Origin: Burkholderia vietnamiensis LMG 10929
Lineage (GTDB): Bacteria > Pseudomonadota > Gammaproteobacteria > Burkholderiales > Burkholderiaceae
Reading direction: 5' to 3'
Assembly: GCF_000959445.1 (NCBI RefSeq)
Contig: NZ_CP009631.1
Location: 744,001-808,000, forward strand
Length of the DNA: 64,000 bases
Of this stretch, positions 1 to 63,066 are shown one piece after another (positions within the stretch are counted from its first letter, which is position 1; every line of letters begins with the position of its first letter). The notes beneath the pieces were generated by a model, which saw nothing but the letters and a program-made list of their open reading frames with translations, was not told the DNA's origin and made no database searches. Made by a program: the position numbers and the translations under genes.

Positions 1-630
1 ATAGGCGACGATGAACGAACCGGCGATCAGATACACCGGTTGCAGGATCGTCGCGAACACGTTGCCGTACGCTTCCTGATGGAGCCAGCTCGTCACGAGC
101 TTGGTCAGCACGATCGCATACACGCTGTTCAGCGCGGTCAACGTGATGAGCCGCTGCGACACCTGCCCTTCCGCGCGCAGTTCGGTCTTCAGCTGGATCA
201 CCATCGACGGCGAGGTCGCGATCGCGATCGCCGACAGCACCAGCGCGACCATGCCCGACACGCCGAGCGCGAGCATCACGAACAGCACGAGCACGAAGGT
301 CAGCGTCGCTTCGGCGAGGCTCGACGCAATCAGCCACGGATTGCGGCGAATCCACTTCAGGTCGAGCCGGCTGCCGAGCTCGAACAGCAGCAGGCCGAGC
401 GCGACGTCGATCAGCAGACGCGAGGTTTCGTCGGTACTCGCGTCGATCACGCCGAATCCGAGCGACCCGGCGATCAGACCGATCACCGCATAGCCGGTGA
501 TGCGCGGCAGCCGCCAGGCGCGATAGCACAGCTCGCCACACAGACCGGCCGCAAACAACGCGAGACCGGCCCAGAACACGGCATCCGGCGCGAGCGGCCA
601 GTTGGGCAGAAATGAGAACGCCGACTTCAT
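1..630 (-). CDS. Cation:proton antiporter, CPA/Kef-type (C-terminus outside window)
   Basis: The frame is open from an ATG at 630 to the window edge, giving the first 210 residues. Translation shows alternating hydrophobic segments and the motif GYAVIGLIAGSLGFG near residue 50, typical of the Na+/H+ exchanger domain of CPA2/Kef-type transporters. A later stretch, IAIATSPSMVIQ, resembles the discontinuous-helix region of this family. An inner-membrane monovalent cation/H+ exchanger is therefore likely; whether it moves K+ or Na+ cannot be told. The start is supported by AAAGGAGA about 10 bases upstream. The regulatory TrkA-N part, if present, lies outside the window. Confidence 0.8.
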   Translation of the reverse strand, partial: MKSAFSFLPNWPLAPDAVFWAGLALFAAGLCGELCYRAWRLPRITGYAVIGLIAGSLGFGVIDASTDETSRLLIDVALGLLLFELGSRLDLKWIRRNPWLIASSLAEATLTFVLVLFVMLALGVSGMVALVLSAIAIATSPSMVIQLKTELRAEGQVSQRLITLTALNSVYAIVLTKLVTSWLHQEAYGNVFATILQPVYLIAGSFIVAY

Positions 631-928
631 CGTGGTGACTTCTCCTTTGGAAGCAATCGCCAGCGGCGCGGGGTCAAGCGTCAGAAATGAGATGCACGCC
701 GGCTGGGTATCGCCCCGAATGTGATTGTTGTGGTCGACGACGGCGGGACATGGGATCCGCCTCTTCCGCCATCCGGCGGAGTGTCGTACAGGCTGCCGAT
801 CTGGATTGTCGGCCTGGTGTGTGAACGGACTGCGCAGTCTCGAAGATTCAGATTCGAAATCGTGCCGACCGTTCCATTGATGCATGTCCGGCGCAGGGCC
901 GGACGAACGCGAAGGAAACCGATTGTGC
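631..928. other. Intergenic stretch without a recognisable gene
   Basis: This is the upstream region of the antiporter gene. The short frames here overlap on both strands, have no ribosome-binding sites and give Arg-rich translations typical of GC-rich shadow frames. I see no RNA gene. The methylation-motif array begins immediately to the right. Confidence 0.5.
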
Positions 929-1284
929 CACAGCTTTTTCGTTCCGGAACCCGCCCGATCGACTCGCGGCGCTGTGAGGCGCCACAGGTCTTTGGTTTCA
1001 ACTGTTTACTCGTATACATACGTAGTAGAAGTTAACAAGGCACGCACAGTTCTGTGGATAACGCAGGTTTGTGTAGAAAGATCAAGGCATTGGCGTGCGC
1101 GTAACCCGTTGCACACGTTGTTTGCTCACAGCGGTTCGAGTTGAGCAACTTTCGGGCCGCATCGCGGCTGTGCGAGTTACCCAGTTTACGTCCACTGTGA
1201 TTGCACACGGACTGCGTACGGATTCCGCGCAGTTATCCACAGCGGTGCGTGGATAAGTTTGCGCGGGCGAATCGCGGGACTGTG
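929..1284. repeat. Methylation-motif array A: ten CACAG, four GTWWAC, DnaA-box-like sites
   Basis: CACAG (or its complement CTGTG) starts at 929, 972, 983, 1045, 1052, 1127, 1168, 1195, 1238 and 1280, many about 41-43 bases apart. GTWWAC occurs at 1004 (GTTTAC), 1012 (GTATAC), 1031 (GTTAAC) and 1184 (GTTTAC). Perfect DnaA-box-type sequences lie at 1053-1061 (TGTGGATAA) and 1233-1241 (TTATCCACA), each overlapping a CACAG site; a one-mismatch copy is at 1248-1256. At base frequencies of this genome fewer than one CACAG would be expected by chance. The core around 1004-1060 recurs inverted near 47983-48044. Function is inferred only: replication- or methylation-related regulatory DNA. Confidence 0.7.
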
Positions 1285-1302: not shown

Positions 1303-3264
1303 TCAGCCGAGTTTGCGCCCGCGCAGGGCGCGGATCAGGAACCGGGCGGGGTCGACGGCATCGACGAGCTCGCGCTCGAGCGGCAACGGCTCGCCTTCGA
1401 GTTGCGACGCGATCAGCTCGGCACCGAGCGACGCCCACACGAGGCCGCGCGAACCGAAGCCGAACGCGCCGTACAGGCCGGCGGTGCGCGGCAGGTCGCG
1501 CGCTTTCGCACCGCTCAGCGCCCGCGCGTTGGCAACGGCCTGCGCTTCGTCCGCGAGCGGGCCGATCAGCGGCACGCGATCGGCGACGACCCAGCGAAAC
1601 GCGACGCGCCCGCGCAACGTATCGACGTCCGGCACGTCGCCGACGAGGCCCGGCAGCAGATGCCGGATGCGCGCGAGGTTTTCGAGGTGGCCGGCGTCGC
1701 GAATCTCAGGATCGACGTCGTCCGGTTCGAAGGTCGCGCCGATCAGCAGCGTGCCGTCGTCGAGCGGCACCGCGTAGCCGTCGCCGATCGCGGGGCACGG
1801 CAGCGGCGCCGTCGTGCCGGGCGGCAGCAGCGTCAACTGGCCGCGCACCGGCTGTAGCGCGACATGCCGCAGGCCCGCGAGCCGCACCGCGTCGCCGGCA
1901 TTCGCGAGCACGACGACCGGCGCTTCGGCGATCGTCGCGCCGTCGGCGCCGATCGCGCGCCACGTGTCGCCGTCGCGTTCGAGCCGCGCGACCTCGGTGC
2001 CGGTGCGCAGCGTCACGCGCTCGCCGGCCGCGGCGACCTGGGCGGCACAGAGTCCGGCCGGCCATACGGCGCCGCCGTGCGGAAACAGCAGGCCGCCGTG
2101 CGCGACCGGCAGATTCAGATGCGCGCGCGCGGCGTCGGCATCGAGCAGCGTGACATGGTCGGCCGGTGCGCCGAGCGCGTCGAACGCATCGCGCATTCGC
2201 ACGAAGTCGTCGGCCGATTCCGCGAGATGGATCATCCCGCGCGTGCTGCGCGCGAACGTGTGGCCCGCATGCTCGAGCGCGCGCCAGCGCGCGAGCGCAT
2301 GCAGGAAACCGCTGCGCGTGAGGCGGCTCGCGACGTTGTCGTCGCGCGTCATCAGCGGATGGAACACGCCGGCCGGATTGCCCGATGCCTCGCTCGCGAT
2401 CTGCGCGTGTCGCTCGATCAGCGTGACGTGCCAGCCGCGCGCGGCGAGCCGCTCGACGAGCGCACATCCGGCGAGGCCCGCGCCGATCACGATCGCCTCG
2501 CGCACGGCCACCGGCAACGCGCGCGGCGGCTCGTGCCGGCGCATCCGCCACCGCGGCGCGTATTCGCCGACCAGCATCGCAAACTTGCCGGCCAAACCCG
2601 GCATCTTGCGATAGGCGAAGCCCGCTTCGACGAGCGCCTGCTTCACGACGCCTGCGCTCGAATACGTCGCGAACGTCGCGTCGTCGGCTGCGACGCGCGC
2701 GAGCGCGCGGAACACGTCGGCCGACCAGAGGTCCGCGTTCTTCGCCGGTGCGAAGCCGTCCAGATAGAACGCGTCCGCGCGTGCGACGAGCTTCGGCAGC
2801 AGCTCGCGCGCATCGCCGAGCGCGAGCGTGAGCACGACGCGTCCACCTTCGAATTCGATCCGATGAAAACCGGGCACGGCCGGCGGCCACGCATCGGCAA
2901 GCAACGTGGCCTGCTCCGACAAAGTTGTGCCCGCAACGATGTGGGAAAGCGCGCGGCGCAGGTCGTCGCGCGTGAACGGATGCTTCTCGAACGACACGAA
3001 ATGCAGCCGCTCGCAGCGCGCGGGGTCGTCGCGCCACGCGGCCCAGGTCGCGAGGAAGTTGGTGCCGGTGCCGAACCCCGTCTCGACGATCGTGAACGTG
3101 CGGCTGCCCTGCCAGCGTGCGGGCAGCCGGTTGCCGGCGATGAACACGTAGTTCGCCTGCGCGAACGCACCGGCGACGTTGTAATAGATGTCGCCGTACT
3201 CGGGCGAGATGAGGGTGCCGTCGTCGCGAAACGCGAGCGTGGCCGGGACGAGTCGGTCGGGCAT
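1303..3264 (-). CDS. mnmC: Bifunctional tRNA mnm5s2U34 methyltransferase / FAD-dependent cmnm5s2U34 oxidoreductase MnmC
   Basis: MnmC completes the 5-methylaminomethyl-2-thiouridine modification at the wobble base of tRNAs for Lys, Glu and Gln. The N-terminal third is the SAM-dependent methyltransferase half (VETGFGTGTNFLATW near residue 62, a glycine-rich SAM site). The C-terminal part is a DAO-type FAD oxidoreductase, with the dinucleotide-binding motif IGAGLAGCALVERLAARG near residue 262. The length of 653 residues fits the family. The ATG at 3264 (MPDRLVP) is preferred over a TTG three codons upstream because it matches the usual N-terminus. It is convergent with nothing nearby and is read away from hupB. 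Confidence 0.93.
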   Translation of the reverse strand: MPDRLVPATLAFRDDGTLISPEYGDIYYNVAGAFAQANYVFIAGNRLPARWQGSRTFTIVETGFGTGTNFLATWAAWRDDPARCERLHFVSFEKHPFTRDDLRRALSHIVAGTTLSEQATLLADAWPPAVPGFHRIEFEGGRVVLTLALGDARELLPKLVARADAFYLDGFAPAKNADLWSADVFRALARVAADDATFATYSSAGVVKQALVEAGFAYRKMPGLAGKFAMLVGEYAPRWRMRRHEPPRALPVAVREAIVIGAGLAGCALVERLAARGWHVTLIERHAQIASEASGNPAGVFHPLMTRDDNVASRLTRSGFLHALARWRALEHAGHTFARSTRGMIHLAESADDFVRMRDAFDALGAPADHVTLLDADAARAHLNLPVAHGGLLFPHGGAVWPAGLCAAQVAAAGERVTLRTGTEVARLERDGDTWRAIGADGATIAEAPVVVLANAGDAVRLAGLRHVALQPVRGQLTLLPPGTTAPLPCPAIGDGYAVPLDDGTLLIGATFEPDDVDPEIRDAGHLENLARIRHLLPGLVGDVPDVDTLRGRVAFRWVVADRVPLIGPLADEAQAVANARALSGAKARDLPRTAGLYGAFGFGSRGLVWASLGAELIASQLEGEPLPLERELVDAVDPARFLIRALRGRKLG

Positions 3265-3575
3265 GCGAAACAAAAAACGTGGCGGCCAAGCCTGGCAAGG
3301 GATTGCGCGGACGCCCGGCGCGCCGCGTTGGCAAAAACCAACGAGCTGGCGCGCGCGTGGAGCGAGCTGCGTATCCTCTGCGCTTGGCGCAGGTCAAAAA
3401 ATGGGCAATCGACGATTCATTCGGCGAAATACCGATGAAAATCTTTGAAACCCTTGTCGTTATTGGGTTTGCGCTGCGCTATCATAGCAACGCCGTACCG
3501 CGGGGTGGCCGCCGGCAAGCCGGACGGCGCGTCGCGCGGGCCAGGATTCGGCGCTGTGTCGTCGGAGTCTGTCTC
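3265..3575. other. Intergenic region between mnmC and hupB
   Basis: The divergent mnmC and hupB genes are separated by about 390 bases. This part holds no convincing gene; short frames in all phases lack support. It should contain the mnmC promoter and upstream hupB control sites, but I could not assign them. Confidence 0.5.
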
Positions 3576-3653: not shown

Positions 3654-3932
3654 ATGAACAAACAGGAACTGATCGACGCCGTCGCCGCCCAAACGGGCGC
3701 CAGCAAGGCTCAAACCGGCGAAACGCTGGACACGCTGCTCGAAGTCATCAAGAAAGCCGTGTCGAAGGGCGATGCGGTTCAGCTGATCGGCTTCGGCAGC
3801 TTCGGTTCGGGCAAGCGCGCAGCACGTACGGGCCGCAACCCGAAGACGGGCGAAACCATCAAGATCCCGGCAGCCAAGACGGTCAAGTTCACGGCTGGCA
3901 AGGCGTTCAAGGACGCCGTCAACAAGCGTTAA
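3654..3932 (+). CDS. hupB: DNA-binding protein HU
   Basis: This 92-residue protein is a canonical [17 protein letters not shown] at the start, the GFGSFG turn near residue 46, and the beta-arm signature [14 protein letters not shown] around residues 60-73. HU is a small homodimeric nucleoid protein that bends DNA without strict specificity and supports initiation at oriC. AAAGGAACC precedes the ATG, and a strong terminator follows, so the gene is probably monocistronic. Naming as hupA or hupB is a matter of convention when a single beta-proteobacterial HU is seen. Confidence 0.96.
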
Positions 3933-36521: not shown

Positions 36522-38540
36522 ATGGAAAAGACGATGCAGAAACTCGATGCGGCGAGCCCGCTGGCGATGTCGACGGATTTCACCGCCGACAACGTCGCGC
36601 GCCTGAAGGCGCTGTTCCCCGAACTCGTGACCGAAGGCCCGCACGGCGCGTCGGTGGACGTCGACGTGCTCAAGGCGCTGGTCGGCGAGCACACCGTCGG
36701 CGCCGCCGACGAGCGCTACGGCTTCCACTGGCACGGCAAGCGCGGCGCGCGCCAGGCCGCGCTCACGCCGTCGACCGGCACGCTGCGCCCGTGCCCCGAC
36801 GACAGCGTCGCGTGGGACGACACGCGCCATCTCGTGATCGAGGGCGACAACCTCGACGTGATGAAGCTGCTGCACAAGAGCTACGCGGGCAAGGTGAAGC
36901 TCGTCTACATCGACCCGCCGTACAACACCGGCAGCGATTTCGTCTACGCGGACGACTTCAGCGACAGCATCCGCCATTACCTCGCGATGACGGGCCAGAC
37001 CGACGCCGGCGTGAAGCGCAGCACCAACACCGAGGCGAACGGCCGGTTCCACACCGACTGGCTGAACATGATGTATCCGCGGCTGAAGCTCGCGCACGCG
37101 CTGCTGTCCGACGAAGGGCTGATCGCCGTGCACATCGACGAGCACGAGGTGCATGCGCTCGTGCTGATGCTGCGCGAGATCTTCGGCGAGGAGAACGAGC
37201 TCGGCGTGGCCGTGTGGGACAAGCGCAATCCGAAGGGCGACGCGCGCGGCATCGCGTACCAGCACGAGTCGCTGGTGCTGTTCGCGCGCAACGCCGAGAC
37301 GCTGCTCGAACAGGCGCCGCTGAAGCGCCCGAAGCGCAACGCGCAGCGCATGCTCGATGCCGCGCACGACGCCGTGTACCGCAGCGGCAACGCAAAGGAC
37401 GCGCAGAAGGCGTACCGCGCGTGGATGAAGGCGCAGACCAACCTGTCCGGCGGCGAGGTGATGTACGACCGGCTGTCCGCCGACGGGCGCGTGTACCGGC
37501 TCGTGTCGATGGCGTGGCCGAACAAGAAGAAGGCGCCGGACGAGTATTTCACGCCGCTGATCCACCCGGTCACCGGCAAGCCGTGCGCGATGCCGGCGCG
37601 CGGCTGGCGCAATCCGCCCGCGACGATGCAGGCGCTGATCGAGCGCGGCCAGATCGAATTCGGCCCCGACGAGACCACCCAGCCGCAGCGGATCTACTAC
37701 CTCGACGAGAACATGTACGAGAACGTGCCGTCGGTGCTGCCGTTCGCCGGCTCCGACGACGCGCTGCTGAAGGCGCTCGGCATCCCGTTCGACCAGCCGA
37801 AGCCGGTCGATTTCGCGGCGGCCGTGATCGGCTGGTGCACGCGCGGCGACGACATCGTGCTCGACTGCTTCGCCGGCTCCGGCTCGACCGGCCACGCGGT
37901 GATGCAGGTGAACGCGACCGACGGCGGCGCACGCCGCTACATCCTCGTGCAGCTGCCCGAAGCGCTCGACCGTCGCGACAAGGCGCAGCAGGCGGCCGCC
38001 GATTTCTGCGCGAAGCTGAAGAAGCCGGCGACGCTCGCCGAAGTCACCAAGGAGCGGCTGCGCCGCGCCGCGCAGCAGGTCGCGCGCGACTATCCGGAAA
38101 GCTATGGCGACCTCGGCTTTCGCGTGTATCGCCTCGACACCACCAACGTGATCGAGTGGGATCCGCGCCGCGACGACTTCGACCATGCGCTGTTCGCGTC
38201 GGTCGAGCACGTGAAGACCGGCCGCAGCGAAGACGACCTGCTCGCCGAGCTCACGCTCAAGCTCGGCCTCGATCTGTGCACGCCGGTCGAGCATCACCAG
38301 GTGGCCGGCAAGACGGTGCACCTGATCGGCCGCGCGATCGTCGCGTGCTTCGACGCGCGCATGTCGCGCGACGACGCGGGGCCGCTCGCCGACGGCATCG
38401 TCGAGCTGCTCGATGCGACCGGCGCGACGCGCGACGTCACGTGCCTGTTCCGCGACAGCGGCTTCGTCGACGACGTCGCGAAGCTCAATCTCGCCGCGCT
38501 GCTCGAGCAGCACGGCGTGAAGCGCGTGCGGAGCCTCTGA
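36522..38540 (+). CDS. Type III restriction-modification DNA methyltransferase, Mod subunit
   Basis: A 672-residue adenine-N6 methyltransferase of the beta class. The catalytic motif DPPYNTGSDF lies near residue 131, and the SAM motif FAGSGSTGHAV near residue 449, in that order. The target-recognition domain lies between them. Mod also dictates specificity for the Res partner. From memory this position and type match B. cenocepacia BCAL3494, reported to methylate CACAG; orthology is an inference here. The ATG at 36522 is used; one at 36534 has GGAAAAG just upstream and may be the real start. Its stop overlaps the res ATG. Confidence 0.92.
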   Translation: MEKTMQKLDAASPLAMSTDFTADNVARLKALFPELVTEGPHGASVDVDVLKALVGEHTVGAADERYGFHWHGKRGARQAALTPSTGTLRPCPDDSVAWDDTRHLVIEGDNLDVMKLLHKSYAGKVKLVYIDPPYNTGSDFVYADDFSDSIRHYLAMTGQTDAGVKRSTNTEANGRFHTDWLNMMYPRLKLAHALLSDEGLIAVHIDEHEVHALVLMLREIFGEENELGVAVWDKRNPKGDARGIAYQHESLVLFARNAETLLEQAPLKRPKRNAQRMLDAAHDAVYRSGNAKDAQKAYRAWMKAQTNLSGGEVMYDRLSADGRVYRLVSMAWPNKKKAPDEYFTPLIHPVTGKPCAMPARGWRNPPATMQALIERGQIEFGPDETTQPQRIYYLDENMYENVPSVLPFAGSDDALLKALGIPFDQPKPVDFAAAVIGWCTRGDDIVLDCFAGSGSTGHAVMQVNATDGGARRYILVQLPEALDRRDKAQQAAADFCAKLKKPATLAEVTKERLRRAAQQVARDYPESYGDLGFRVYRLDTTNVIEWDPRRDDFDHALFASVEHVKTGRSEDDLLAELTLKLGLDLCTPVEHHQVAGKTVHLIGRAIVACFDARMSRDDAGPLADGIVELLDATGATRDVTCLFRDSGFVDDVAKLNLAALLEQHGVKRVRSL

Positions 38541-41500
38541 TGCGGCTGCATTTCGAAGCGGATCTCGACTACCAGCGCGACGCGATCGACGCCGTCTGCG
38601 ACCTGTTTCGCGGCCAGGAATCGTATCGCGGCGACTTCAGCGTGCTCGCGAACGCCGCGCCCGGCACGACGGCCGCCGCGCAAGGCTCGCTCGGCTTCGC
38701 GGTGTCGGAGCAAGGCGTCGGCAACCGGCTGTCGCTGACCGACGACGCGCTCGCGCGCAACCTCGCCGACGTGCAGCTGCGCGGCGGGCTGCCGCCGTCC
38801 GGCCAGCCCGGCTCGCGCGACTTCACCGTCGAGATGGAAACCGGCACAGGCAAGACCTACGTGTACCTGCGCACGATCTTCGAGCTGAACCGCCGCTACG
38901 GCTTCACGAAGTTCGTGATCGTGGTGCCGTCGATCGCGATCAAGGAAGGCGTGCACAAGACGCTGTCGATCACCGAGGATCATTTCCGCGCGCTGTACGC
39001 GGGCGTGCCGTACGACTACTTCCTGTACGACTCGGCGAAGCTCGGCCAGGTGCGCCACTTCGCGGCGAGCGCGGCGATCCAGATCATGGTGATGACCGTC
39101 GCCGCGATCAACAAGAAGGAAATCAACAACCTCTACAAGGACAGCGAGAAGACCGGCGGCGAGAAGCCGATCGACCTGATCCGCGCGACGCGGCCGATCG
39201 TGATCGTCGACGAGCCGCAGAGCGTCGACGGCGGCCTCGAAGGGCGCGGCCGCGAGGCGCTCGCCGCGATGGCGCCGCTCTGCACGCTGCGCTACTCGGC
39301 CACCCACGTCGACCGGCATCACATGGTGTATCGGCTCGACGCGGTCGACGCTTACGAGCGCAAGCTCGTCAAGCAGATCGAGATCGCGTCGGCGATCGTC
39401 GAGGACGCGCACAACAAGCCGTACGTGCGGCTCGTCGGCGTGTCGAACCGGCGCGGCGCGATCAGCGCGCGCATCGAGCTCGACGTGGCGACCGCGGCCG
39501 GCGTGAAGCGGCAGATCGTGTCCGCGACCGACGGCGACGATCTCGAACGGCTGACCAAACGCGCGCTGTACGCCGGGCTGCGCATCGGCGAAGTGCATGC
39601 GGTCAAGGGCGCCGAATACGTCGAGCTGCGCCATCCGGAAGGCGACGCGTTCCTGTCGCTCGGCGAGGCGTTCGGCGACATCGACACGCTCGCGGTGCAG
39701 CGCGAGATGATCCGCCGCACGATCCGCGAGCATCTCGACAAGGAGCTGCGCCTCGCCGAGCGCGGCGTGAAGGTGCTGTCGCTGTTCTTCGTTGACTCGG
39801 TCGAGCGCTATCGCCGCTACGACGAGAACGGTACGCCCGTCAAAGGCGACTACGCGCTGATCTTCGAAGAGGAATATGCGCGCGCCGCGCGGGTGCCGGC
39901 CTATCGCGCGCTGTTCGACGGCGTCGACATCGCCCGCGAGGTCGAGCGCGCGCACAACGGCTACTTCTCGATCGACCGCAAGGGCGGCTGGACCGACACG
40001 AGCGAGAGCAGCGCCGCCGCGCGCGAGAACGCCGAGCGCGCGTACGGGCTCATCATGCGCGAGAAGGAAGCGCTGCTGTCGTTCGACACGCCGCTGAAGT
40101 TCATCTTCTCGCACTCGGCGCTGAAGGAAGGCTGGGACAACCCGAACGTGTTCCAGATCTGCACGCTGCGCGACATCCAGACCGAACGCGAGCGCCGTCA
40201 GACGCTCGGCCGCGGGCTGCGCCTCGCGGTCGACCAGGACGGCGAGCGCGTGCGCGACCCCGGCGTGAACACGCTCACCGTGATCGCGACCGAGCGCTAC
40301 GAGTCGTTCGCGGAGAACCTGCAGAAGGAAATCGAGGCCGACACCGGCATCCGCTTCGGGATCGTCGAGCAACACCAGTTCGCGGCGCTGCCGGTGCAGG
40401 AAGGCGACGGCCCCGCGCATGCGCTCGGCATCGAGCTGTCGCGCATGCTGTGGACGCATCTGCACGAGCAAGGCTACGTCGACGCGCAGGGCAAGGTGCT
40501 CGACCGCCTGAAGGACGCGCTGCGCCGCAGCGCGCTCGTGCTGCCCGACGCATTCGAGACGCTGCGCGCGCCGATCGTCGCGACGCTTCGCAAGCTGTCG
40601 GGCCGCTTCGCGGTGCGCAACGCGGACGAGCGGCGCGCGATCGCGCTGCGCCGCGATGCGTCCGGCAAGGCCGTGATCTTCGGCGACGCGTTCCGCGCGC
40701 TGTGGGAACGCATTCGCCATCGCACCGTGTACAGCGTGGACTTCGACAACGCGAAGCTGGTGCGCGACTGCACGACGGCGCTGCGCGACGCGCCCGACAT
40801 CGCGCGGGCGCGGCTGCAATGGCGCAAGGCCGAGATCGACATCGGCAAGGCCGGCATCGAGGCGATCGAGGTGGCGGGCGCCGGCACGGTGCTGCTCGAC
40901 GAAGGCGAACTGCCGTTGCCGGACCTGCTCACCGAGCTGCAGGACCGCACGCAGCTCACGCGCCGCTCGCTCGCGACGATCCTCGCCGACAGCGGCCGGC
41001 TCGACGACTTCCGCGTGAATCCGCAGCAGTTCATCGCGCTGGCCGCCGACGCGATCAACCGCTGCAAGCGGCTCGCGCTCGTTGCGGGGATCTCGTACAG
41101 GAAGCTCGGCGATCGTCACGTGCACGCGCTCGAATCGTTCGAGAGCGAGGCGCTCACCGGCTACCTGCGCAGCCTGCGGCTCGATGCGCGCAAGTCGATT
41201 CACGAGGCGGTGGTGTGCGAGACGGACGCGGAGCGCGCGTTCGCCGATGCGCTCGAAGCGCACGACGGCGTGAAGCTGTACGCGAGGCTGCCGGCGTGGT
41301 TCCGCATCGCGACGCCGCTCGGCGGCTATCACCCGGACTGGGCCGTGCTCGCGGAACAGGATGGCGGCGAGCGGCTCTATTTCGTCGTCGATACGCCGAA
41401 CGCCGACGACGCCGTGCCGAGCGAGCACGAGCGCGCGAAGCTCGCGTGCGGCGCCGCGCATTTCCGCGCGCTGGCCGATGGCGAAGATGCGGCGCGGTTC

Positions 41501-41566
41501 GTGCGCGTCGCGCAGGTCGATGCGCTGTTCGAGCCCGGTGCGGCGGCGGGCGGCCGCGCGGGTTGA
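38540..41566 (+). CDS. Type III restriction endonuclease subunit Res
   Basis: The 1008-residue partner of Mod. The helicase motor has Walker A in METGTGKTYVYLRT near residue 98 and a DEAD-like box IVIVDEPQSV near residue 220. Motif VI-like RRQTLGRGLRL lies near residue 552. The nuclease-type end has GYHPDWAVLAEQ followed by FVVDTP near residues 930-955; the Lys of a classical D-EXK core is not seen in the visible FVVDT stretch, so nuclease competence should be checked. Overlap of one base with mod indicates coupled translation. The frame is intact, with no sign of decay. Confidence 0.92.
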   Translation: MRLHFEADLDYQRDAIDAVCDLFRGQESYRGDFSVLANAAPGTTAAAQGSLGFAVSEQGVGNRLSLTDDALARNLADVQLRGGLPPSGQPGSRDFTVEMETGTGKTYVYLRTIFELNRRYGFTKFVIVVPSIAIKEGVHKTLSITEDHFRALYAGVPYDYFLYDSAKLGQVRHFAASAAIQIMVMTVAAINKKEINNLYKDSEKTGGEKPIDLIRATRPIVIVDEPQSVDGGLEGRGREALAAMAPLCTLRYSATHVDRHHMVYRLDAVDAYERKLVKQIEIASAIVEDAHNKPYVRLVGVSNRRGAISARIELDVATAAGVKRQIVSATDGDDLERLTKRALYAGLRIGEVHAVKGAEYVELRHPEGDAFLSLGEAFGDIDTLAVQREMIRRTIREHLDKELRLAERGVKVLSLFFVDSVERYRRYDENGTPVKGDYALIFEEEYARAARVPAYRALFDGVDIAREVERAHNGYFSIDRKGGWTDTSESSAAARENAERAYGLIMREKEALLSFDTPLKFIFSHSALKEGWDNPNVFQICTLRDIQTERERRQTLGRGLRLAVDQDGERVRDPGVNTLTVIATERYESFAENLQKEIEADTGIRFGIVEQHQFAALPVQEGDGPAHALGIELSRMLWTHLHEQGYVDAQGKVLDRLKDALRRSALVLPDAFETLRAPIVATLRKLSGRFAVRNADERRAIALRRDASGKAVIFGDAFRALWERIRHRTVYSVDFDNAKLVRDCTTALRDAPDIARARLQWRKAEIDIGKAGIEAIEVAGAGTVLLDEGELPLPDLLTELQDRTQLTRRSLATILADSGRLDDFRVNPQQFIALAADAINRCKRLALVAGISYRKLGDRHVHALESFESEALTGYLRSLRLDARKSIHEAVVCETDAERAFADALEAHDGVKLYARLPAWFRIATPLGGYHPDWAVLAEQDGGERLYFVVDTPNADDAVPSEHERAKLACGAAHFRALADGEDAARFVRVAQVDALFEPGAAAGGRAG

Positions 41567-47554: not shown

Positions 47555-47631
47555 TGGTAGGCTCGATTGGATTCGAACCAACGACCCCCACCATGTCAAG
47601 GTGGTGCTCTAACCAACTGAGCTACGAGCCT
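47555..47631 (-). tRNA. tRNA-Val (anticodon GAC)
   Basis: A 77-base cloverleaf with AGGCTCG/CGAGCCT acceptor, encoded CCA, anticodon loop TTGACAT (GAC at 47595-47597) and a normal T arm (GGTTCGAATCC). Confidence 0.97.
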
Positions 47632-47767: not shown

Positions 47768-48391
47768 CACAGCAAAACGTGTCGGTGCGCTGTGACGTTA
47801 TGCACATCGCCCTCTGGATAACCGGCTCGGAAGCCTCTGGATTCACAGTGGAACGATTGGGGATACGTCGGCGCGGCTGTGAATCGACGAAAAGTTGTTC
47901 TGTGCTGCACAGAGATTTGCGTCTGCTTTGCGGCGGGTTATGCGTTGCGGTTCGGGCTTTGGATTCAGGGGGTTAAGGAGGTTATCCACTGTGAGGCCGT
48001 GCGCTTGTTAACTATCACTACGTATGTATACGAATCCTGTTAACACCTTTGGATAAGCACAGTCCGGAGACTGTGATCCGGGGTGGATGTGCACTGCGTG
48101 CGGTGGGGGAGAACCTAATCTGGGCGCTGTGAGCGGGGCCAAGGTCTGGATGGGACGCACAGATCAATTGTTTGATAGCTTGGGGCCGGAGCTAGCTTGG
48201 CGAGCTCAAGCTGCATTGGGTGATGTGCTGCCTGGTAAAGCCGCGTAGCTCGGAAGCGGCGCGGCAGGCGAAGCGTCCTGGGGAGTGGTCTGCACAGGAA
48301 ACGCTCGTGCCGGTGATGCGGCTCTCCATCACGTTTGGTTAACCGGAAGCAAACCAGTTCGAAGCGCTGTGCAGCTCGCCGGCCGGCTGTG
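47768..48391. repeat. Methylation-motif array B: fourteen CACAG and four GTWWAC
   Basis: CACAG/CTGTG starts at 47768, 47790, 47844, 47877, 47900, 47908, 47989, 48058, 48071, 48127, 48158, 48293, 48367 and 48387. GTWWAC occurs at 48007 (GTTAAC), 48026 (GTATAC), 48039 (GTTAAC) and 48338 (GTTAAC). DnaA-box-like near matches are at 47813-47821, 47982-47990 and 48048-48056. About one CACAG would be expected by chance. No gene is supported in 47673-48445; the leftward frame at 48115-48534 has no ribosome site. Positions 47983-48044 align with array A in reverse orientation. Confidence 0.7.
48333..48371 (+). repeat. 39-base dispersed repeat, left copy
   Basis: GTTTGGTTAACCGGAAGCAA opens this copy and GAAGCGCTGTG closes it. 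It aligns over its full length with the three copies right of the Imm71/72-like gene, best with 49642-49681. Confidence 0.6.
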
Positions 48392-48445
48392 CAAGCCGCT
48401 GCATGGAGGCGTCGTTGGCTCGAGAATGAAGAGACCCATACAAAG

Positions 48446-49582
48446 ATGAGCGACAGCAACGTGAGTCCCACGACGCGAATTGGAAGCGTGGTACGAAGTT
48501 CAACGATGACGAAGACGATCAAGCAATACGACATGGCCGACGATGCGACCCGGCGCAGAATTTTCTGGCTGCTTCAACGGCTGACCAGCTTCTCGCTCTG
48601 GAAGCGCAAGCGCGAAGACTTTGCGATCTTCGCGAACGAGTACGAGAACGCGGTAAAGACTTGGCCCGAAGATGATCCGGAGCGCGTGCACGCAGATCAT
48701 TTGCCAACCATCTTCGAAATTCTCGCTTCTTACGATCGAGGCTTGACCGAACTAGCCCGCGGGTATCGATTCGTGTGGCAGTGTGGCGAGCCGCTGGAAT
48801 ACGCGATTGATCGGTATAACTATTTGAATGCATATTTTTTCCCCCACCAGGATTACTGGGAGCGTGGTGCGCAATTCGCCGCTTACCCGCCAAAGATCGA
48901 TGCGCTGGCCAAACTTCTGCATGCATCGGAATACCAGATGGAGAACGCTCCGTTGGAGCCGTCGAGTTTGAACAACGATCTCGCACAACTGCGCTCGGTC
49001 GGACTGCTGCTGTCTCCCGGTGCATACGACTACACCTTCTACACGCTTCCGTATCCGGTATTTCCAGCGAACCTGCCGGAGGTTCCGGAACCCGTGGGCC
49101 CGGTGGTCAAATCTGGTGACAAAGTGCCTTGTGACGGCATCTGGGAGCCCGTTACCGTCGAGCAATCGAAGTTGCTGGGCGTTGTGCCGGTCGGCAATCG
49201 CAGCTTGCACAACAACGGCTGCTTCAACTATTTCATTCGTGACATCCGCGCGCCGAACCTCCGGGATGACGAGACGCGAACGCCCGTCAAGACGCACTGG
49301 CGGCTGTTGTGGGAAGACAAGCGATACGCGGACGGCATCATCCCCGACGAATCGGAGTACTTCCTCGATCCGCCTTCAGCGCCGGCGTCCGACCGCGACC
49401 CCGTCGCGCAGGTCCGCACGAGCGATATCTGCCCGGTGACCGGCGATTGGCAGACGGACGAATACGGCGGCAAGGTGCTGCGCGTCGAAGCCGGGGCGGC
49501 GATGCCCGACATGCTGGTCCGGGACAATCTGGGGGAGCTCAAGGTGCACTGGGTGACGTGGCGTCTGGTGAAACGCGCGTAG
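48446..49582 (+). CDS. Orphan Imm71/Imm72-like immunity protein
   Basis: A 378-residue soluble protein whose N-terminal part (TRRRIFWLLQRLTSFSLWKR near residue 30) resembles, from memory, the polymorphic-toxin/T6SS immunity families Imm71 and Imm72 of Burkholderia. The C-terminal half has two similar modules. PCDGIWEP ... THWRLLWEDKRY near residues 225-292 is followed by CPVTGDWQ ... VHWVTWRLVKRA at the end, suggesting internal duplication. No toxin, VgrG or PAAR gene is near. Its composition is less GC-rich than its neighbours, and repeats flank it, suggesting transfer. The ATG at 48446 is chosen; one at 48506 is possible. Confidence 0.6.
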   Translation: MSDSNVSPTTRIGSVVRSSTMTKTIKQYDMADDATRRRIFWLLQRLTSFSLWKRKREDFAIFANEYENAVKTWPEDDPERVHADHLPTIFEILASYDRGLTELARGYRFVWQCGEPLEYAIDRYNYLNAYFFPHQDYWERGAQFAAYPPKIDALAKLLHASEYQMENAPLEPSSLNNDLAQLRSVGLLLSPGAYDYTFYTLPYPVFPANLPEVPEPVGPVVKSGDKVPCDGIWEPVTVEQSKLLGVVPVGNRSLHNNGCFNYFIRDIRAPNLRDDETRTPVKTHWRLLWEDKRYADGIIPDESEYFLDPPSAPASDRDPVAQVRTSDICPVTGDWQTDEYGGKVLRVEAGAAMPDMLVRDNLGELKVHWVTWRLVKRA

Positions 49583-49641
49583 TGCGCAGACGGCAAGGGC
49601 GCGCAAATGCCGCCCGTGCTGCCGTAGCGCTTGGCTTCTGA

Positions 49642-50005
49642 GTGTGGACAACCGGCACGCAACACAATCGGAAACGCTGTGCCCGTCGACAAAAAGCACG
49701 AGTTCGAAGCACTGACGCGCATGCGAACACCGCGAGCGCAGCCGAACCGAGATCCGCTATGCCGGCTCAGTGAAAGCTGTGTGGATATCGCCGCCCGAAG
49801 TCACTCGAAACGCTGTGTAACCCGAAGATGGGCGGTTCGACGAGAGGCTGCATGCAGAGTTGCCGAGACTGATGTTGATATCCCGCGCGCAGAAGACGCC
49901 AAACCGCACGACACCGGAATCGTGCAAGACACGCCGATCTGCGAACGCACCGAGACGAGACTCTCTGTGTGGACAACCGCCACAAAAGCGACTCCCAACG
50001 CTGTG
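49642..50005 (+). repeat. Three dispersed 39-40-base repeats ending in CTGTG (array C)
   Basis: Copies lie at 49642-49681, 49779-49817 and 49967-50005. Each begins GTGTGGA and ends in ACGCTGTG, with CAACCG following the start in two of them. CTGTG occurs at 49677, 49777, 49813, 49965 and 50001. They fill the otherwise empty gap 49583-50078; the rightward frame at 49631-50155 running through them has no ribosome site and is judged non-coding. Confidence 0.65.
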
Positions 50006-50078
50006 GATCTGAACGTCTCACATGAGCGCTTTGAGCGCTGGCCGAGCTCCACCAGCCGGCCCGCCGACATCACCCCCC

Positions 50079-50840
50079 TCAAATCTGCTGATCCAACGCC
50101 CTCGCAACGGCTTGCTCACCGAGATTGCTCGCCGGCCCGACCACCGCATAGTTGAGCCCGTTCACCGACCCATACCGCGCCATCAACGCGCCGTCCACGC
50201 GTTGCCCCGCGGGCAGCAGCCGATTTTTCGCTTCCGCTGGCCGCAGATAGAAGCTCAGCGTCCGCCCGGCATCGTCCTCATAGAGCACCATCGCGGCCGC
50301 GGCGCCGCTGTCCGTCATGAACAACCGCGCGCCGATCGGCTTGAACCCTGCGGCACTCAAGTCCGGCAGCTTCGCCGACGCGCCGACGCGCCTGGTGAGC
50401 CACCCATGCAGATCCTTCGCACTCGTCGGCCGGAAATCCACCTTCGCGACCTGATCGACCACCATCATCCGGTAAGCCTCGACCGCATCGCTCATCGGCG
50501 CGACGGGCGGCGGCGCGTTCCACCCGCGCGCCTGCCAGCCGCCGAAGGTGCCGAGCCCGATGCAGAACACGAACGAAGCGGCCATCGCGAACCGCATCCG
50601 CGAGCGTTCGGCGCGGCGCGAACGAATCGCGGCCGGATCGAGCTCGGGATTCCCGGCGGGCATCCGCACGCTTTCGAGCGCTGCCCGCAACCGCTGCGCA
50701 TCCTGCTGCCACTGCTTCACCTGCTCGGCGCTCTCCGGATGCAGCGCGAGATATCGCTCGACCGCGGCGCGCGCATCGTCGTCGAGCTGGCCGTCGACAT
50801 AGGCCTGGAGATCGTGTTCGTCGGGGCGGAGGTCGTTCAT
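50079..50840 (-). CDS. Anti-sigma factor, single-span membrane type
   Basis: A 253-residue protein with an N-terminal anti-sigma domain (MNDLRPDEHDLQAYVDGQLD), one membrane span near residues 84-103 (MAASFVFCIGLGTFGGW) and a periplasmic sensor region. No HXXXCXXC zinc motif is present; the only cysteine seen lies in the membrane span, so redox sensing through zinc release is unlikely. It overlaps the sigma gene by four bases. It should hold the sigma factor at the membrane until an envelope signal arrives. Confidence 0.88.
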   Translation of the reverse strand: MNDLRPDEHDLQAYVDGQLDDDARAAVERYLALHPESAEQVKQWQQDAQRLRAALESVRMPAGNPELDPAAIRSRRAERSRMRFAMAASFVFCIGLGTFGGWQARGWNAPPPVAPMSDAVEAYRMMVVDQVAKVDFRPTSAKDLHGWLTRRVGASAKLPDLSAAGFKPIGARLFMTDSGAAAAMVLYEDDAGRTLSFYLRPAEAKNRLLPAGQRVDGALMARYGSVNGLNYAVVGPASNLGEQAVARALDQQI

Positions 50841-51355
50841 TTCATCAACCGGAGAGAAGGAGCGGGAAGCTCGCCGTCGCTGAGCTGGCGCAGCGCCTGC
50901 CGCGCGCGCGACAGGCGCGACATCACGGTGCCGATCGGCACCTCGAGCAGATCGGCGACTTCCCGATACGTGAAGCCTTCGACCGCGACGAGCAGCAGCA
51001 GGCTGCGTTGCTCGTCGGAGAGCCGGCCGAACGCTTCGAGCGTCGCGCGCGCGGCGAATTCGCGTTCGGCGGACGGCCAGTGCGCGTCTTCATCGTCGCG
51101 GATGCGGCCGAGCAGCCACGCGTAGCGCTTCGCGCTGCGCTTGCCGTCGAGAAACTGGCGGTAAAGGATCGTGAAGAGCCAGCTGCGCAGCGATGCGTCG
51201 TCGCGGCGGCTCGCCCAGCGCGACAACGCGCGCTCGAGCGTCGACTGAACGAGATCGTCGGCTGCGTGGACGTCGCGCGCCAACCACAGCGCGAAGCGTC
51301 GCAGCCTGGGGATGAGTTCGCGCAACGCGTCGTCGTCGGGGGCGTTTGAAGGCAT
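50837..51355 (-). CDS. RpoE-type ECF sigma factor
   Basis: The 172-residue protein has sigma-2 (RFALWLARDVHAADDLVQSTLERAL, in part) and sigma-4 (LLLVAVEGFTYREVADLLEVPIGTVMSRLSRAR, in part). The start at 51355 is settled by the promoter: the leftward GGAATAA-N14-CGTC signal ends at 51395, so transcription begins about 30 bases before this ATG, and the longer frame from 51409 would start upstream of its own promoter. It is co-expressed with the anti-sigma factor and probably drives the divergent catalase operon. Confidence 0.92.
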   Translation of the reverse strand: MPSNAPDDDALRELIPRLRRFALWLARDVHAADDLVQSTLERALSRWASRRDDASLRSWLFTILYRQFLDGKRSAKRYAWLLGRIRDDEDAHWPSAEREFAARATLEAFGRLSDEQRSLLLLVAVEGFTYREVADLLEVPIGTVMSRLSRARQALRQLSDGELPAPSLRLMK

Positions 51356-51394
51356 GGCCGGGGGCGAGCCGAAAGGCGTGGAGATGCCGGGTAA

Positions 51395-51419
51395 GACGCC
51401 GCCCGGCATCGCTTATTCC
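51395..51419 (-). promoter_or_regulatory. ECF promoter of the sigma/anti-sigma operon
   Basis: Read leftwards: GGAATAA (51419-51413), 14 bases, CGTC (51398-51395). The sequence between, GCGATGCCGGGCGG, nearly matches the spacer of the divergent promoter at 51445. Confidence 0.8.
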
Positions 51420-51444
51420 ATCAGCATACGAAAAATTGTTTCGT

Positions 51445-51469
51445 GGAATAAAGCGACGCGGGCGGCGTC
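51445..51469 (+). promoter_or_regulatory. ECF promoter of the catalase/cytochrome b561 operon
   Basis: GGAATAA (51445-51451), 14-base spacer, CGTC (51466-51469). It is a near copy of the leftward promoter and places the start of transcription about 35 bases before the catalase ATG. Confidence 0.8.
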
Positions 51470-51511
51470 CTATTCCCGTTCGACAATGATCAGACGATCG
51501 GGAGTGCATCC

Positions 51512-52600
51512 ATGAAGCAATCTTCTTCTTCGCCGCCGCGCGAGCCTGGGCGCGGATGGTGGCGCTGGGCCGTGATCGGCGGCGCGGCGGCCGGCGTGGT
51601 GGTGGCGTTCGGCTATGTCGGCGGGTGGCTCGCGCCGGCGCGGCTGACGCCGCATCGGCTCGTCGACGCGCTGCAGACGGCCGGCGGCGGCGTCCATCCG
51701 GGCTTCCGGCGCAATCACGCGAAGGGCGTGTGCGTGACCGGCTACTTCGAAGGCAGCGGCGCCGCGAGTGCGTATTCGGTGGCGCCGTTCTTCAAGCCCG
51801 TGCGCACGCCGGTGGTCGGCCGGTTCGCGCTGCCGGGCGGCAATCCGTATGCGCCGGACAGCAGCGTGCCGATCCGCAGCCTCGCGCTGAAGCTGACCGC
51901 TCCGGACGGCGAGCAATGGCGCACCGGGATGAACGCGATGCCGGTGTTCCCGGTCGCGACGCCGAAGGCGTTCTACGAGCAGCTGCTCGCGACCGCGCCC
52001 GACCCGGCGACGGGCAAGGCCGATCCGGCGAAGGTGAAGGCGTTCTTCGCCGCGCATCCGGAGACGGCCGCCTTCCGCGCATGGGTGAAGGGTGCGAAGC
52101 CGAGCGCGAGCTACGTCACCGAAAGCTATTACGGGCTGAACGCGTTCTACTTCGTCGACGCCGCCGGCCAGCGGCACGCGGTGAGATGGCGCGTCGTGCC
52201 CGAGCAGACGGCCGGCGCCGCGGACGTCGCGACGGCGGCCGATCCGAACGTGCTGCAGCAGGACGTCACGCGCCGCATCGCTGGCGGTGCGCAGAAGTGG
52301 AAGCTGCTCGTCACCTTGGCCGACCCCGGCGATCCGGTGGACGACGCGACGAAAACCTGGCCCGCGCAGCGAACGACGATCGACGCGGGCACGCTGGTGC
52401 TCGATCGCGTCGAGCCGCAGGACAGCGGCCCGTGCCGCGACGTGAACTACGACCCGACGGTGCTGCCGCGCGGGATTCAGGTGTCGGGCGATCCGTTGCT
52501 GGCGGCGCGCTCGGCCGCGTATGCGGATTCGTATCTGCGCCGCACGAGTGAAGAGGCCGGCGTGGCCGGGGCCGCGCGATTGACTGCGGAGGGACGATGA
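51512..52600 (+). CDS. Membrane-anchored catalase-related peroxidase, SrpA-like
   Basis: A 362-residue haem protein with an N-terminal membrane anchor (residues 17-37) and the minimal catalase core. The distal His is in GFRRNHAKGVCVTGYFEGSG near residue 71, and the haem-tyrosine pattern RSAAYADSYLRR lies near residue 340. It is shorter than monofunctional catalases, like the periplasmic SrpA group, which act more as organic peroxidases. The following cytochrome b561 overlaps it, suggesting electrons from the membrane. GGGAGTGCATCC precedes the ATG. Confidence 0.9.
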   Translation: MKQSSSSPPREPGRGWWRWAVIGGAAAGVVVAFGYVGGWLAPARLTPHRLVDALQTAGGGVHPGFRRNHAKGVCVTGYFEGSGAASAYSVAPFFKPVRTPVVGRFALPGGNPYAPDSSVPIRSLALKLTAPDGEQWRTGMNAMPVFPVATPKAFYEQLLATAPDPATGKADPAKVKAFFAAHPETAAFRAWVKGAKPSASYVTESYYGLNAFYFVDAAGQRHAVRWRVVPEQTAGAADVATAADPNVLQQDVTRRIAGGAQKWKLLVTLADPGDPVDDATKTWPAQRTTIDAGTLVLDRVEPQDSGPCRDVNYDPTVLPRGIQVSGDPLLAARSAAYADSYLRRTSEEAGVAGAARLTAEGR

Positions 52601-53130
52601 TGAAGGGAACTACGACGTTTGGCTTGCCGGCAAGGCTGCTGCATTGGGTGATGGCCGCGATGATCGTGACGATGCTGTTCGTCGGTGTGGGGATGGTGGC
52701 GTCGATTTCGCGGCGACACGATTTCCTGGTGGCGTTGCACAAGCCGTTGGGGATCGCCGTGCTGGTGCTGGTGTGCGTGCGCATCGCGGTGCGGCTGTCG
52801 ACGAAAGCGCCGGCGCTGCCGGACGATCTGCCGTGGTGGCAGAAGTTCGCCGCGCACGGGTCGCATCTCGTGCTGTATGCGCTGATGGTCGCGATGCCGC
52901 TGATCGGCTGGGCGATGCTGTCGGCGGGCGGATACCCGGTGACCTTGGGCGGCGGGGTGCAATTGCCGGCGCTGGTCTCGGCGGATCCGGCGACCTTCGC
53001 ATGGCTGCGGGTCGCGCATCGGGTGTTGGCTTACCTGTTCTTCGTCACGTTCGTCGCGCACTTCGCGGCGGCGCTCTATCACGGGCTGATCCGGCGCGAC
53101 GGGGTGGTGAGGGCGATGGTCGGGCGTTGA
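52597..53130 (+). CDS. Cytochrome b561
   Basis: The 177-residue inner-membrane protein has four spans and the haem-ligand histidines expected of the CybB family: LLHWVMAAMIV near residue 15, ALHKPLGIAVL near residue 48, and VAHRVLAYLFFVTFVAHFAAALYHG (in part) at the end. It starts inside the catalase stop, so the two are made together. It probably passes electrons between quinol and a periplasmic acceptor, here perhaps the SrpA-like peroxidase. Confidence 0.93.
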   Translation: MMKGTTTFGLPARLLHWVMAAMIVTMLFVGVGMVASISRRHDFLVALHKPLGIAVLVLVCVRIAVRLSTKAPALPDDLPWWQKFAAHGSHLVLYALMVAMPLIGWAMLSAGGYPVTLGGGVQLPALVSADPATFAWLRVAHRVLAYLFFVTFVAHFAAALYHGLIRRDGVVRAMVGR

Positions 53131-53164
53131 CTTGCGCGGGGTGCGCGCGATGCGGCGGGGCTGT

Positions 53165-53188
53165 CGGCGGCGCTCGAGGGCGCCGCCG
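53165..53188 (+). terminator. Hairpin after cytochrome b561
   Basis: CGGCGGCG pairs with CGCCGCCG around an eight-base loop, 35 bases after the stop. There is no proper T run, so termination strength is uncertain. Confidence 0.4.
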
Positions 53189-53242
53189 CTGTCTCGATTT
53201 GACGGCTGCGGAAGGCTGCTCAACGGACCCCGCCGCACCGCT

Positions 53243-53295
53243 TGTCAAAAAATTTTCAAAAAGTGCTTGACGCCGATGCTGGGGAAAACCATAAT
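53243..53295 (+). promoter_or_regulatory. rRNA operon promoter with UP element
   Basis: TTGACG (53267-53272), 17-base spacer and CATAAT (53290-53295) follow an A/T-tract UP-element-like stretch at 53243-53262. A GC-rich discriminator (TCGGCCTC) comes next, as in stringently controlled rRNA promoters. Confidence 0.88.
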
Positions 53296-53346
53296 TCGGC
53301 CTCTCTTGATTGAGACGCGAAACAAACGAGACGTTTGAAACGCGAC

Positions 53347-53358
53347 GTTCTTTAAAAA
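53347..53358 (+). promoter_or_regulatory. boxA antitermination element, 16S leader
   Basis: GTTCTTTAAAAA matches the Nus-factor boxA consensus and lies about 50 bases into the transcript. A second copy precedes 23S. Confidence 0.75.
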
Positions 53359-53360
53359 TT

Positions 53361-53383
53361 AACAGCCGATAAGTGTGGGCGCT
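53361..53383 (+). other. 16S processing stem, 5' arm
   Basis: This 23-base sequence (AACAGCCGATAAG...) pairs with 55087-55109 downstream of 16S, with only two G-U-type mismatches. It forms the long stem cut by RNase III. Confidence 0.85.
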
Positions 53384-53531
53384 TGATGGAAGCGAGCTGA
53401 TCTTCGGATCAGAAAGCGAAAGTATCAAGAGTCTCACACTAAAGTAAGTCAGGTTTATGAAGAGATTCATATACCTGTCAGCTTTGAGTGAGCGACCGGT
53501 TCTTAACGGAACCGAAAACAGTAACAGGTTT

Positions 53532-55064
<1,533 letters not shown>

Positions 55065-55511
55065 CCAGAGCTATCTCGCAAAATTGAGCGCTCACGCTTA
55101 TCGGCTGTTGGTTTAGAAAGAAAGGCTGTCTGTTAGCGGTTTTATCGGTTATAATACCGGCCGCTTTCGATAATCTTCAATGAAAAATATTCGAACGATG
55201 TTTCGTTCGAGTCTTTCTCATTGGCGATTGAGCCAGTCAGAGCGGTACGAAAGTATCGGCTGTCGTTCTTTAACAATCTGGAAGAAGTAAGTAATTTGGA
55301 TAGTGGAAGCGTCTTGAGATGGACGTGAAAACTATCCGGGTTGTGATTGTATCGATGTATCTCAAGATGATTCGAACTTCATGTTCGGCTCAATTGGAAT
55401 ACGGCACAACGCGAGAACTCAACCTGTAGCGACTGTCGTCCCCTTCGGGGATGGGCCCCTCGTAAGCGCTAAAGCGCTAACGATGGCCGACATGAGACAG
55501 ACTCGTTATAG
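55065..55511 (+). other. 16S-23S spacer without tRNA genes
   Basis: About 447 bases. It holds the 3' arm of the 16S processing stem (55087-55109) and a second boxA (GTTCTTTAACA, 55265-55275). I find neither tRNA-Ile(GAT) nor tRNA-Ala(TGC), which many proteobacterial spacers carry. A small hairpin around CCCCTTCGGGG lies at 55440-55450. Confidence 0.85.
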
Positions 55512-58393
<2,882 letters not shown>

Positions 58394-58546
58394 ATAACAA
58401 GTCTGCCTTGTAGATCGGCGCCGTGCGAAAGCACTGGCCGCGATCCAGAGCGACATGTTGGATTCTCGTGTGTGATACACACAACTCAAGATTACTGCTT
58501 CTTCCAAGATTGGTTCTGTTGGCCATGCCAGCAGAACAACCCTCTT

Positions 58547-58661
58547 TGCCTGATGACCATAGCGAGTCGGTCCCACCCCTTCCCATCCCGAACAGGACCG
58601 TGAAACGACTCTACGCCGATGATAGTGCGGATTCCCGTGTGAAAGTAGGTAATCGTCAGGC
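58547..58661 (+). rRNA. rrf: 5S ribosomal RNA
   Basis: Begins TGCCTGATGACCATAGCGAG and closes with CGTCAGGC. Internal CCCATCCCGAACAGG and the CGCCGATGATAGTG loop are typical. About 150 bases of spacer separate it from 23S. Confidence 0.95.
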
Positions 58662-58674
58662 TCCCCTAAGCCAG

Positions 58675-58703
58675 AAACCCCCGCCCGAAAGGCGGGGGTT
58701 TTT
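58675..58703 (+). terminator. rRNA operon terminator
   Basis: AAACCCCCGCC pairs with GGCGGGGGTTT around CGAAA and is followed by further T residues, directly after 5S. Confidence 0.95.
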
Positions 58704-58921
58704 GCATTTGTGGCCTCCGAAAATCCGGCTACCGAAGATCATCAGCATCTATCTGTTGACCGTTGGTGTGACGGTTGTTGACGATGGCTGTCGAAAACTG
58801 CGCTGCGTTCCGCGCTCGGGAAGAGCGCATGGAGATGGTCTCTCCGGGGGGCGGGCCGTTGCGGAGGCAGTGAGGGCCGCGTAACGCGGCCCTTGACCCT
58901 TTAGCGCTCGAATAGTCGCCG
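58704..58921. other. Short gap with a GC hairpin
   Basis: Between the rRNA terminator and the SymE-like gene. A perfect nine-base stem AGGGCCGCG/CGCGGCCCT lies at 58873-58893 and could end transcription from either side, although its T run is poor. Confidence 0.45.
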
Positions 58922-61314: not shown

Positions 61315-61378
61315 ACGTCTTGGAGTCCCAGCGGTTCGTCGGGTGCTTTGACGCCCGCCGCTTAGCGCAGCTCCGCGG

Positions 61379-63058
<1,680 letters not shown>

Positions 63059-63066
<8 letters not shown>

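Follow-up and report, generated by a model that had tools for sequence, protein, structure and literature searches.

The analysed stretch of DNA (the window, 64 kb) covers positions 744001-808000 of contig C3 in a 6.93 Mb genome of four contigs. Close to its left edge, the gap between a Na+/H+ exchanger (antiporter) gene and mnmC carries an array of CACAG and GTWWAC sites (array A), together with DnaA boxes and a conserved core. The exchanger gene separates this array from a further group of DnaA boxes (cluster C).

C3:741993-742185, DnaA-box cluster C, at the local GC-skew minimum
1..885 (C3:743416-744885), minus strand, Na+/H+ exchanger gene, its ORF running past the left window edge
929..1284, array A, ten CACAG sites (plus strand 929, 983, 1045, 1127 and 1238; minus strand 972, 1052, 1168, 1195 and 1280)
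1004, 1012 and 1031 (within 1004..1036) and 1184-1189, the four GTWWAC sites of array A
1010..1036, minus strand, conserved core GTTAACTTCTACTACGTATGTATACGA, a 17-bp part of which recurs without mismatch at just one other place in the genome, within array B
1023..1031, minus strand, DnaA-trio-like triplets CTT CTA CTA (opposite strand 3'-GAA GAT GAT-5')
1053..1061, minus strand, DnaA box TTATCCACA, perfect match, beside the trio-like core
1233..1241, plus strand, DnaA box TTATCCACA, perfect match
1248..1256, minus strand, DnaA-like box TTATCCACG, one mismatch
1303..3273, minus strand, mnmC, flanking array A

When the sites were recounted, the ten CACAG and four GTWWAC sites that an earlier note on this DNA had listed between 929 and 1284 were all recovered, with five CACAG sites on each strand. 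The CACAG excess claimed in that note was also confirmed, as about 1.0 site was expected in the 420-bp mnmC-antiporter gap under a first-order Markov model. The density check was run on a sample of 727,620 of the 6,930,496 bases of the same genome (10.5 %, partly picked around DnaA boxes), which contained on average 0.30 CACAG and 0.04 GTWWAC per 360 bp. Array A and a second array in the window (array B) were the two densest CACAG places in this sample, with peaks of 10 and 9 sites per 360 bp, respectively. Across the whole 64-kb window no CACAG excess was found (68 observed vs 102 expected). The 41-43 base spacing that had been proposed for the sites did not hold up well: only four of the nine distances between neighbouring sites show it, and 2.1 % of 20,000 random placements contained a 3-bp bin that was filled as often. 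Periodicity was rejected because it was weak and was lost in the genus-wide site set (2 or 3 of 10 gaps).

Array A has an origin-like anatomy. Two perfect DnaA boxes and one with a single mismatch are clustered within 356 bp of intergenic DNA, and a local GC-skew minimum was observed 2.1-3.4 kb from the array, on the antiporter side, in all five genomes examined (skew was computed on local stretches of 200-400 kb picked around A). The spacer between the box at 1053-1061 and the trio is 21 nt long and includes part of a GTTAAC site. All 35 genus elements scored, and 13 of the 14 from other genera, had this same length; the A element of locus L135, from a divergent genus, does not fit the rule. 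DnaA-trio consensus sequences were taken from PMC6669920 and PMC8287927. As in the published BUS described there, a DnaA box lies beside 3'-GAT-5'-type triplets, and at least three triplets with a conserved middle base are present at A. However, the BUS search rule limits the box-trio spacer to 16 nt unless a second box is present (PMC8287927), and array A is therefore called BUS-like and not a BUS member. The replication-related role that had been suggested for the array is thus well supported by its sequence, which is oriC-like, and array A probably forms that half of the primary-chromosome oriC which contains DnaA boxes and the unwinding site.

Array A was present in 37 of 37 Burkholderia genomes and was not found in 24 genomes from other families of the order. 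The core (at most 3 mismatches) was detected in 59 of 150 genomes of the family, representing 7 of 25 genera, and the named records with a core include Paraburkholderia, Caballeronia and Trinickia. The gidA-parAB region lies about 27-31 kb and dnaA 78 kb from A. A gene for an HU-family DNA-binding protein (3654-3932) adjoins mnmC; its product was 97.8-100 % identical in the five same-genus loci compared. With regard to oric1 of B. cenocepacia (Du 2016, PMC4948915), two observations favour the A-side region: the conserved core with its fixed geometry, and the five local skew minima, which come from genomes other than J2315. If this is true, a sharp sequence criterion would become available for the primary origin, a point left open by Du 2016 (PMC4948915).

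When the orthologous mnmC-antiporter gaps were compared, 7-14 CACAG sites were counted in 35 of 35 Burkholderia genomes vs 1-5 in all 14 genomes from other genera (35 of the 37 genus genomes were scored; G007 and G019 were left out though A was found there). Outside DnaA boxes the counts were 6-12 and 1-3, respectively. A match to the type III methyltransferase Mod, which is encoded in the window and described below, was absent from 13 of the 14 other-genus genomes, and the remaining one (G103) had a Mod match and a single CACAG in its gap. Because the genomes are related, the correspondence between Mod and CACAG amounts mainly to one evolutionary contrast: the stem of Burkholderia holds the one main change in both Mod presence and CACAG excess. 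GTWWAC was frequent at A both in Burkholderia and in other genera. The two CACAG orientations totalled 182 and 200 over the 35 genomes; this strand balance was rejected as evidence by itself, as it is not significant and the genomes are related.

A wider set, obtained from one pattern scan and partly overlapping the 35 + 14 genomes, gave 118 core matches in 114 loci, 80 of them with a record title listed. After 32 were dropped (cut short or away from mnmC), the remaining 86 A elements were scored for CACAG and fell into 29 with 9-14 sites and 57 with 0-5, with none between. The low group includes five loci recorded as 'Burkholderia sp.' (WSM2232, 4M9327F10, Ax-1719, WSM2230 and WAC0059), the mnmC of which is 55-59 % identical and Paraburkholderia-like. 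'Burkholderia sp. Ac-20379' (locus L260) carries 14 CACAG; its mnmC is 57 % identical over 515 residues. It is probably an early-branching Burkholderia, because its MarR neighbour is 84 % identical.

The 35 genus gaps contained a mean of 10.9 CACAG vs 1.18 expected (9.3-fold), and the best of the 15 single-base variants of CACAG reached 1.73-fold, several being depleted; CACAA, CACAC and CACAT stood at 0.84, 1.35 and 0.32 of expectation. As no variant exceeded 1.73-fold, it is the Mod target itself that appears to be selected, not DnaA boxes, and CACAG itself is likely to be under selection at A in Burkholderia. The 14 other-genus gaps showed a 2.8-fold CACAG excess, partly via DnaA boxes. Among the 35 genus sequences, CACAG was kept at the aligned positions 929, 1052 and 1280 in all 35, at 1238 in 33, at 1168 in 32, at 1127 and 1195 in 30, at 972 in 28, at 1045 in 26 and at 983 in 10. 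Conservation of the non-box CACAG columns was 93 % vs 85 % for the other columns of the array.

These data bear on two other explanations of the sites. The CACAG sites could be no more than weak DnaA boxes, in which a G follows the 3' end of TTATCCACA, their methylation being incidental. Two of the ten sites of array A do fall in perfect boxes, but the remaining eight depart from the box sequence at three to five of its nine positions, and the values of CACAA, CACAC and CACAT given above speak against it as well. Moreover, the other genera keep the boxes and the core without extra CACAG, and their DnaA is still 80-88 % identical (12 of 14 with a single match), so we regard this explanation as improbable. 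Another Burkholderia-specific DNA-binding protein might instead recognise the origin CACAG sites, with Mod modulating its binding or just overlapping with it. To our knowledge no protein that reads the CACAG mark has been described, and the base before CACAG was never A in 36 cluster sites, which hints at a slightly longer recognition site. On the other hand, the flanks of these 36 sites were otherwise nearly uninformative and the selected 5-mer equals exactly the published Mod target; we consider such a protein unlikely, if conceivable.

The type III Mod reported in the earlier note was found in the window, directly followed by its restriction subunit.

36522..38540, plus strand, type III DNA methyltransferase Mod, 672 aa, probable BCAL3494 orthologue
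38540..41566, plus strand, type III restriction subunit Res, 1008 aa

Mod carries an N6_N4_Mtase domain, and Res contains helicase and endonuclease domains, as expected for a type III restriction-modification system; Res scored over the Pfam cut-offs and reached 294.5 of 564 bits for NCBIfam PRK15483, which is under the cut-off of that model. The pairing of Mod with Res and the presence of Mod in all genus genomes searched make it a probable orthologue of BCAL3494. An uninterrupted, full-length Mod gene was present in each of the 65 genus genomes searched, so that no natural Mod loss was found among them, and Res had no stops in the 20 genus genomes checked. In the family sample (E-value 1e-30), Mod matches were obtained for 15 of 15 genus members and for 3 of 135 others, the latter at 34-48 % identity. 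The targets that had been assigned to BCAL3494 (CACAG) and BCAM0992 (GTWWAC) could be traced to SMRT data from B. cenocepacia (PMC7364216), where BCAM0992 is encoded between trpB and trpA. A methylase gene at C2:1558852 sits between the same two genes in the present genome and is likely to encode the GTWWAC methylase. It matched 111 of 150 family genomes, and the trpB-trpA methylase has been reported as conserved across Burkholderiaceae (PMC5390034). R. solanacearum is described in PMC7364216 as having the GTWWAC methylase, with Mod and CACAG methylation absent.

The complete Mod/Res pair could point to defence, in which case CACAG clustered in both orientations would offer a good type III nuclease substrate on foreign origins. 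Type III cutting needs two unmodified sites in opposite orientation, and both strands do carry sites (182 and 200 over the 35 genomes). Defence does not, however, predict the CACAG clusters at dnaA, gidA and priA described below, and as an explanation of the array it seems highly improbable.

Features resembling those of array A are repeated at the second array in the window.

47555..47631, minus strand, tRNA-Val (gac), adjoining array B
47768..48391, array B, 14 CACAG, four GTWWAC and four one-mismatch DnaA boxes
48007-48033, plus strand (opposite orientation to the A core), second core copy, with trio-like CTA TCA CTA

The A and B cores lie about 47 kb apart. At the array B loci scored, 7-15 CACAG were counted in 27 of 27, and the middle triplet was TCA in 26 of 27; in other genus members, the tRNA-Val gene accompanied array B at 23 of 26 loci. 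A core facing A from cluster C, about 3 kb off, was found in 4 of 37 genus genomes (G006, G029, G032 and G033). Cluster C of the window genome has DnaA boxes and no core within 3 mismatches. It is possible that array B is a moved copy of cluster C. The third cores of other genera sit at places other than B, and extra core copies away from A were seen in other genera at loci L119, L121, L128, L130, L131 and L133, that of L130 adjoining a glmS-like gene.

One might ask whether array B is the working origin and array A a relic, given the core and the four one-mismatch boxes of B in this genome and its 7-15 CACAG at all scored loci. In the four examined genomes with B, however, the local skew minimum is next to A and some 50 kb away from B, the perfect DnaA boxes of this genome belong to A, and A has three trios with a conserved middle base whereas the middle triplet of B is nearly always TCA. 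In addition, A is present in all 37 genus genomes. This alternative is thus considered very unlikely. The flat GC skew between A and B was rejected as a sign of two origins and lends no support to B, because the skew of G033, a genome without a detected B core, is itself almost flat on this side.

Apart from arrays A and B, at least five CACAG per 360 bp were found in the 10.5 % sample only at dnaA (gene start and upstream), gidA (upstream), priA (within the gene) and one place on contig C2.

C3:698701 (locus L009, 18701-19061), priA cluster, five CACAG per 360 bp, with TTATCCACA at C3:699018 and 699749
C2:459681 (locus L151, 4681-5121), contig C2 cluster, six CACAG per 360 bp, with a TTATCCACA box near and a LysR gene beside it

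Possibly priA is a further replication-gene target of CACAG clustering. Upstream of dnaA, a small test agreed with the comparison at A, with 2-4 CACAG in 10 genus loci vs 1-2 in 17 others (3 of 13 genus loci were dropped for too little upstream DNA). The stretch at the end of C1 with two DnaA boxes had no cluster of at least five CACAG per 360 bp, which counts against an origin-marking role. When 200-kb stretches of other genomes were scanned at the same density, 2, 3 and 2 places beyond A and B were found in G008, G022 and G036, respectively, and one place beyond A and C in G033.

Methylation of both CACAG and GTWWAC at the origins of B. cenocepacia was already described in 2020 (PMC7364216), and therefore this type of site is not new. 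The J2315 study (Vandenbussche 2020, PMC7364216) agrees with the present locus in the CACAG and GTWWAC clusters at origins, the CACAG at DnaA boxes, the CACAG at dnaA and gidA, which in that study are among the genes with methylated promoter CACAG, the type III Mod with Res, and the orphan methylase between trpB and trpA. What is added here is the comparative test of CACAG at the orthologous gap and the exact-motif test. These, with the occurrence of Mod in 65 of 65 genomes, the trio-like core and the second core copy 47 kb off, go beyond the accessible text of PMC7364216, in which the lack of Mod and CACAG methylation in R. solanacearum is the only such comparison. A literature search, with most subscription papers outside its reach, recognised no paper making a cross-genus comparison of CACAG and Mod.

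According to the same source (PMC7364216), CACAG is methylated at the fourth base on one strand only, and deletion of BCAL3494 abolishes this methylation. Nucleoid size was altered in methylase mutants, and dnaA was up 1.9-fold in the K56-2 mutant, the change in J2315 being not significant. Other results of that study count against origin control: exponential-phase growth of the mutants was unchanged, gidA expression showed no significant change in K56-2 or J2315, and the BCAL3494 deletion also took out Res and BCAL3488-3492 (PMC7364216).

Origin-like anatomy, conservation, enrichment of the exact motif and a match to the distribution of Mod are all observed at array A. From these we infer that CACAG is methylated in this strain and that replication is initiated at A, and the dense packing of A with targets of a Mod common to all genus genomes searched suggests that the CACAG mark helps to control the start of replication. 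We favour, with somewhat better than even confidence, a reading in which array A is one half of oriC overlaid with Mod-selected CACAG sites, the half-marked state of which delays re-initiation and tunes dnaA and gidA. DnaA bound to the 1053-1061 box would load onto the trio strand (1023-1031), melting would proceed from the trio towards the antiporter gene, and cluster C, 3 kb off, would by its sequence be the second DnaA-box half. In Burkholderia, some ten CACAG sites would then have been added to this origin element, under selection for recognition by the type III Mod that the whole genus carries. Just after passage of the fork, each sister origin would be unmarked wherever CACAG lies in one of the two orientations, because Mod modifies only an adenine in CACAG, and the complementary CTGTG contains none. 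The half-marked state may be read by DnaA directly or by some reader protein, which would delay re-initiation and tune dnaA and gidA and hence the DnaA supply, comparable to the action of GATC, Dam and SeqA in E. coli; the CACAG clusters at these two genes would fit such tuning. A role in defence would remain, since Mod still has an intact Res.

A more tentative extension, which we hold to be possible but on balance doubtful, is that the complete type III system serves as a genus-wide origin-marking system. As the mark sits on one strand, the sister origins would be methylated in complementary patterns just after initiation, and these could act as a two-strand clock or as a signal of sister identity. 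A one-strand CACAG clock or sister signal would differ from the Dam and CcrM systems, which are palindromic. In E. coli the GATC site is palindromic, giving hemimethylated DNA, and Dam is solitary, whereas here CACAG is asymmetric, the type III Mod is accompanied by Res and no reader is known to us. In both cases methylase targets are crowded at the origin and upstream of dnaA. The mark used in E. coli GATC/Dam/SeqA origin sequestration (PMC13076061, PMC5390034) is diluted by replication, as that of CACAG would be here. If the proposal is true, a defence enzyme has been recruited for cell-cycle control, and the limits on initiation in Burkholderia, with its several large replicons, become testable.

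Several other features were noted along this part of C3. At 49620-50010, a unit with TGTGGACAACCG and AACGCTGTG is present in two to three degenerate copies, which contain five CTGTG in a single orientation. The region following array B (48335-63856), partly of lower GC, holds an IS21 transposase pair and a catalase-family gene as well as immunity genes of the Imm71/Imm72 and Tli4 types. In the interval that separates the window from dnaA, C3:808807-818632 (locus L015, 8807-18632) encodes two large proteins lacking any Pfam match along with a DUF4007 protein and one of HATPase type, and is perhaps a defence island.
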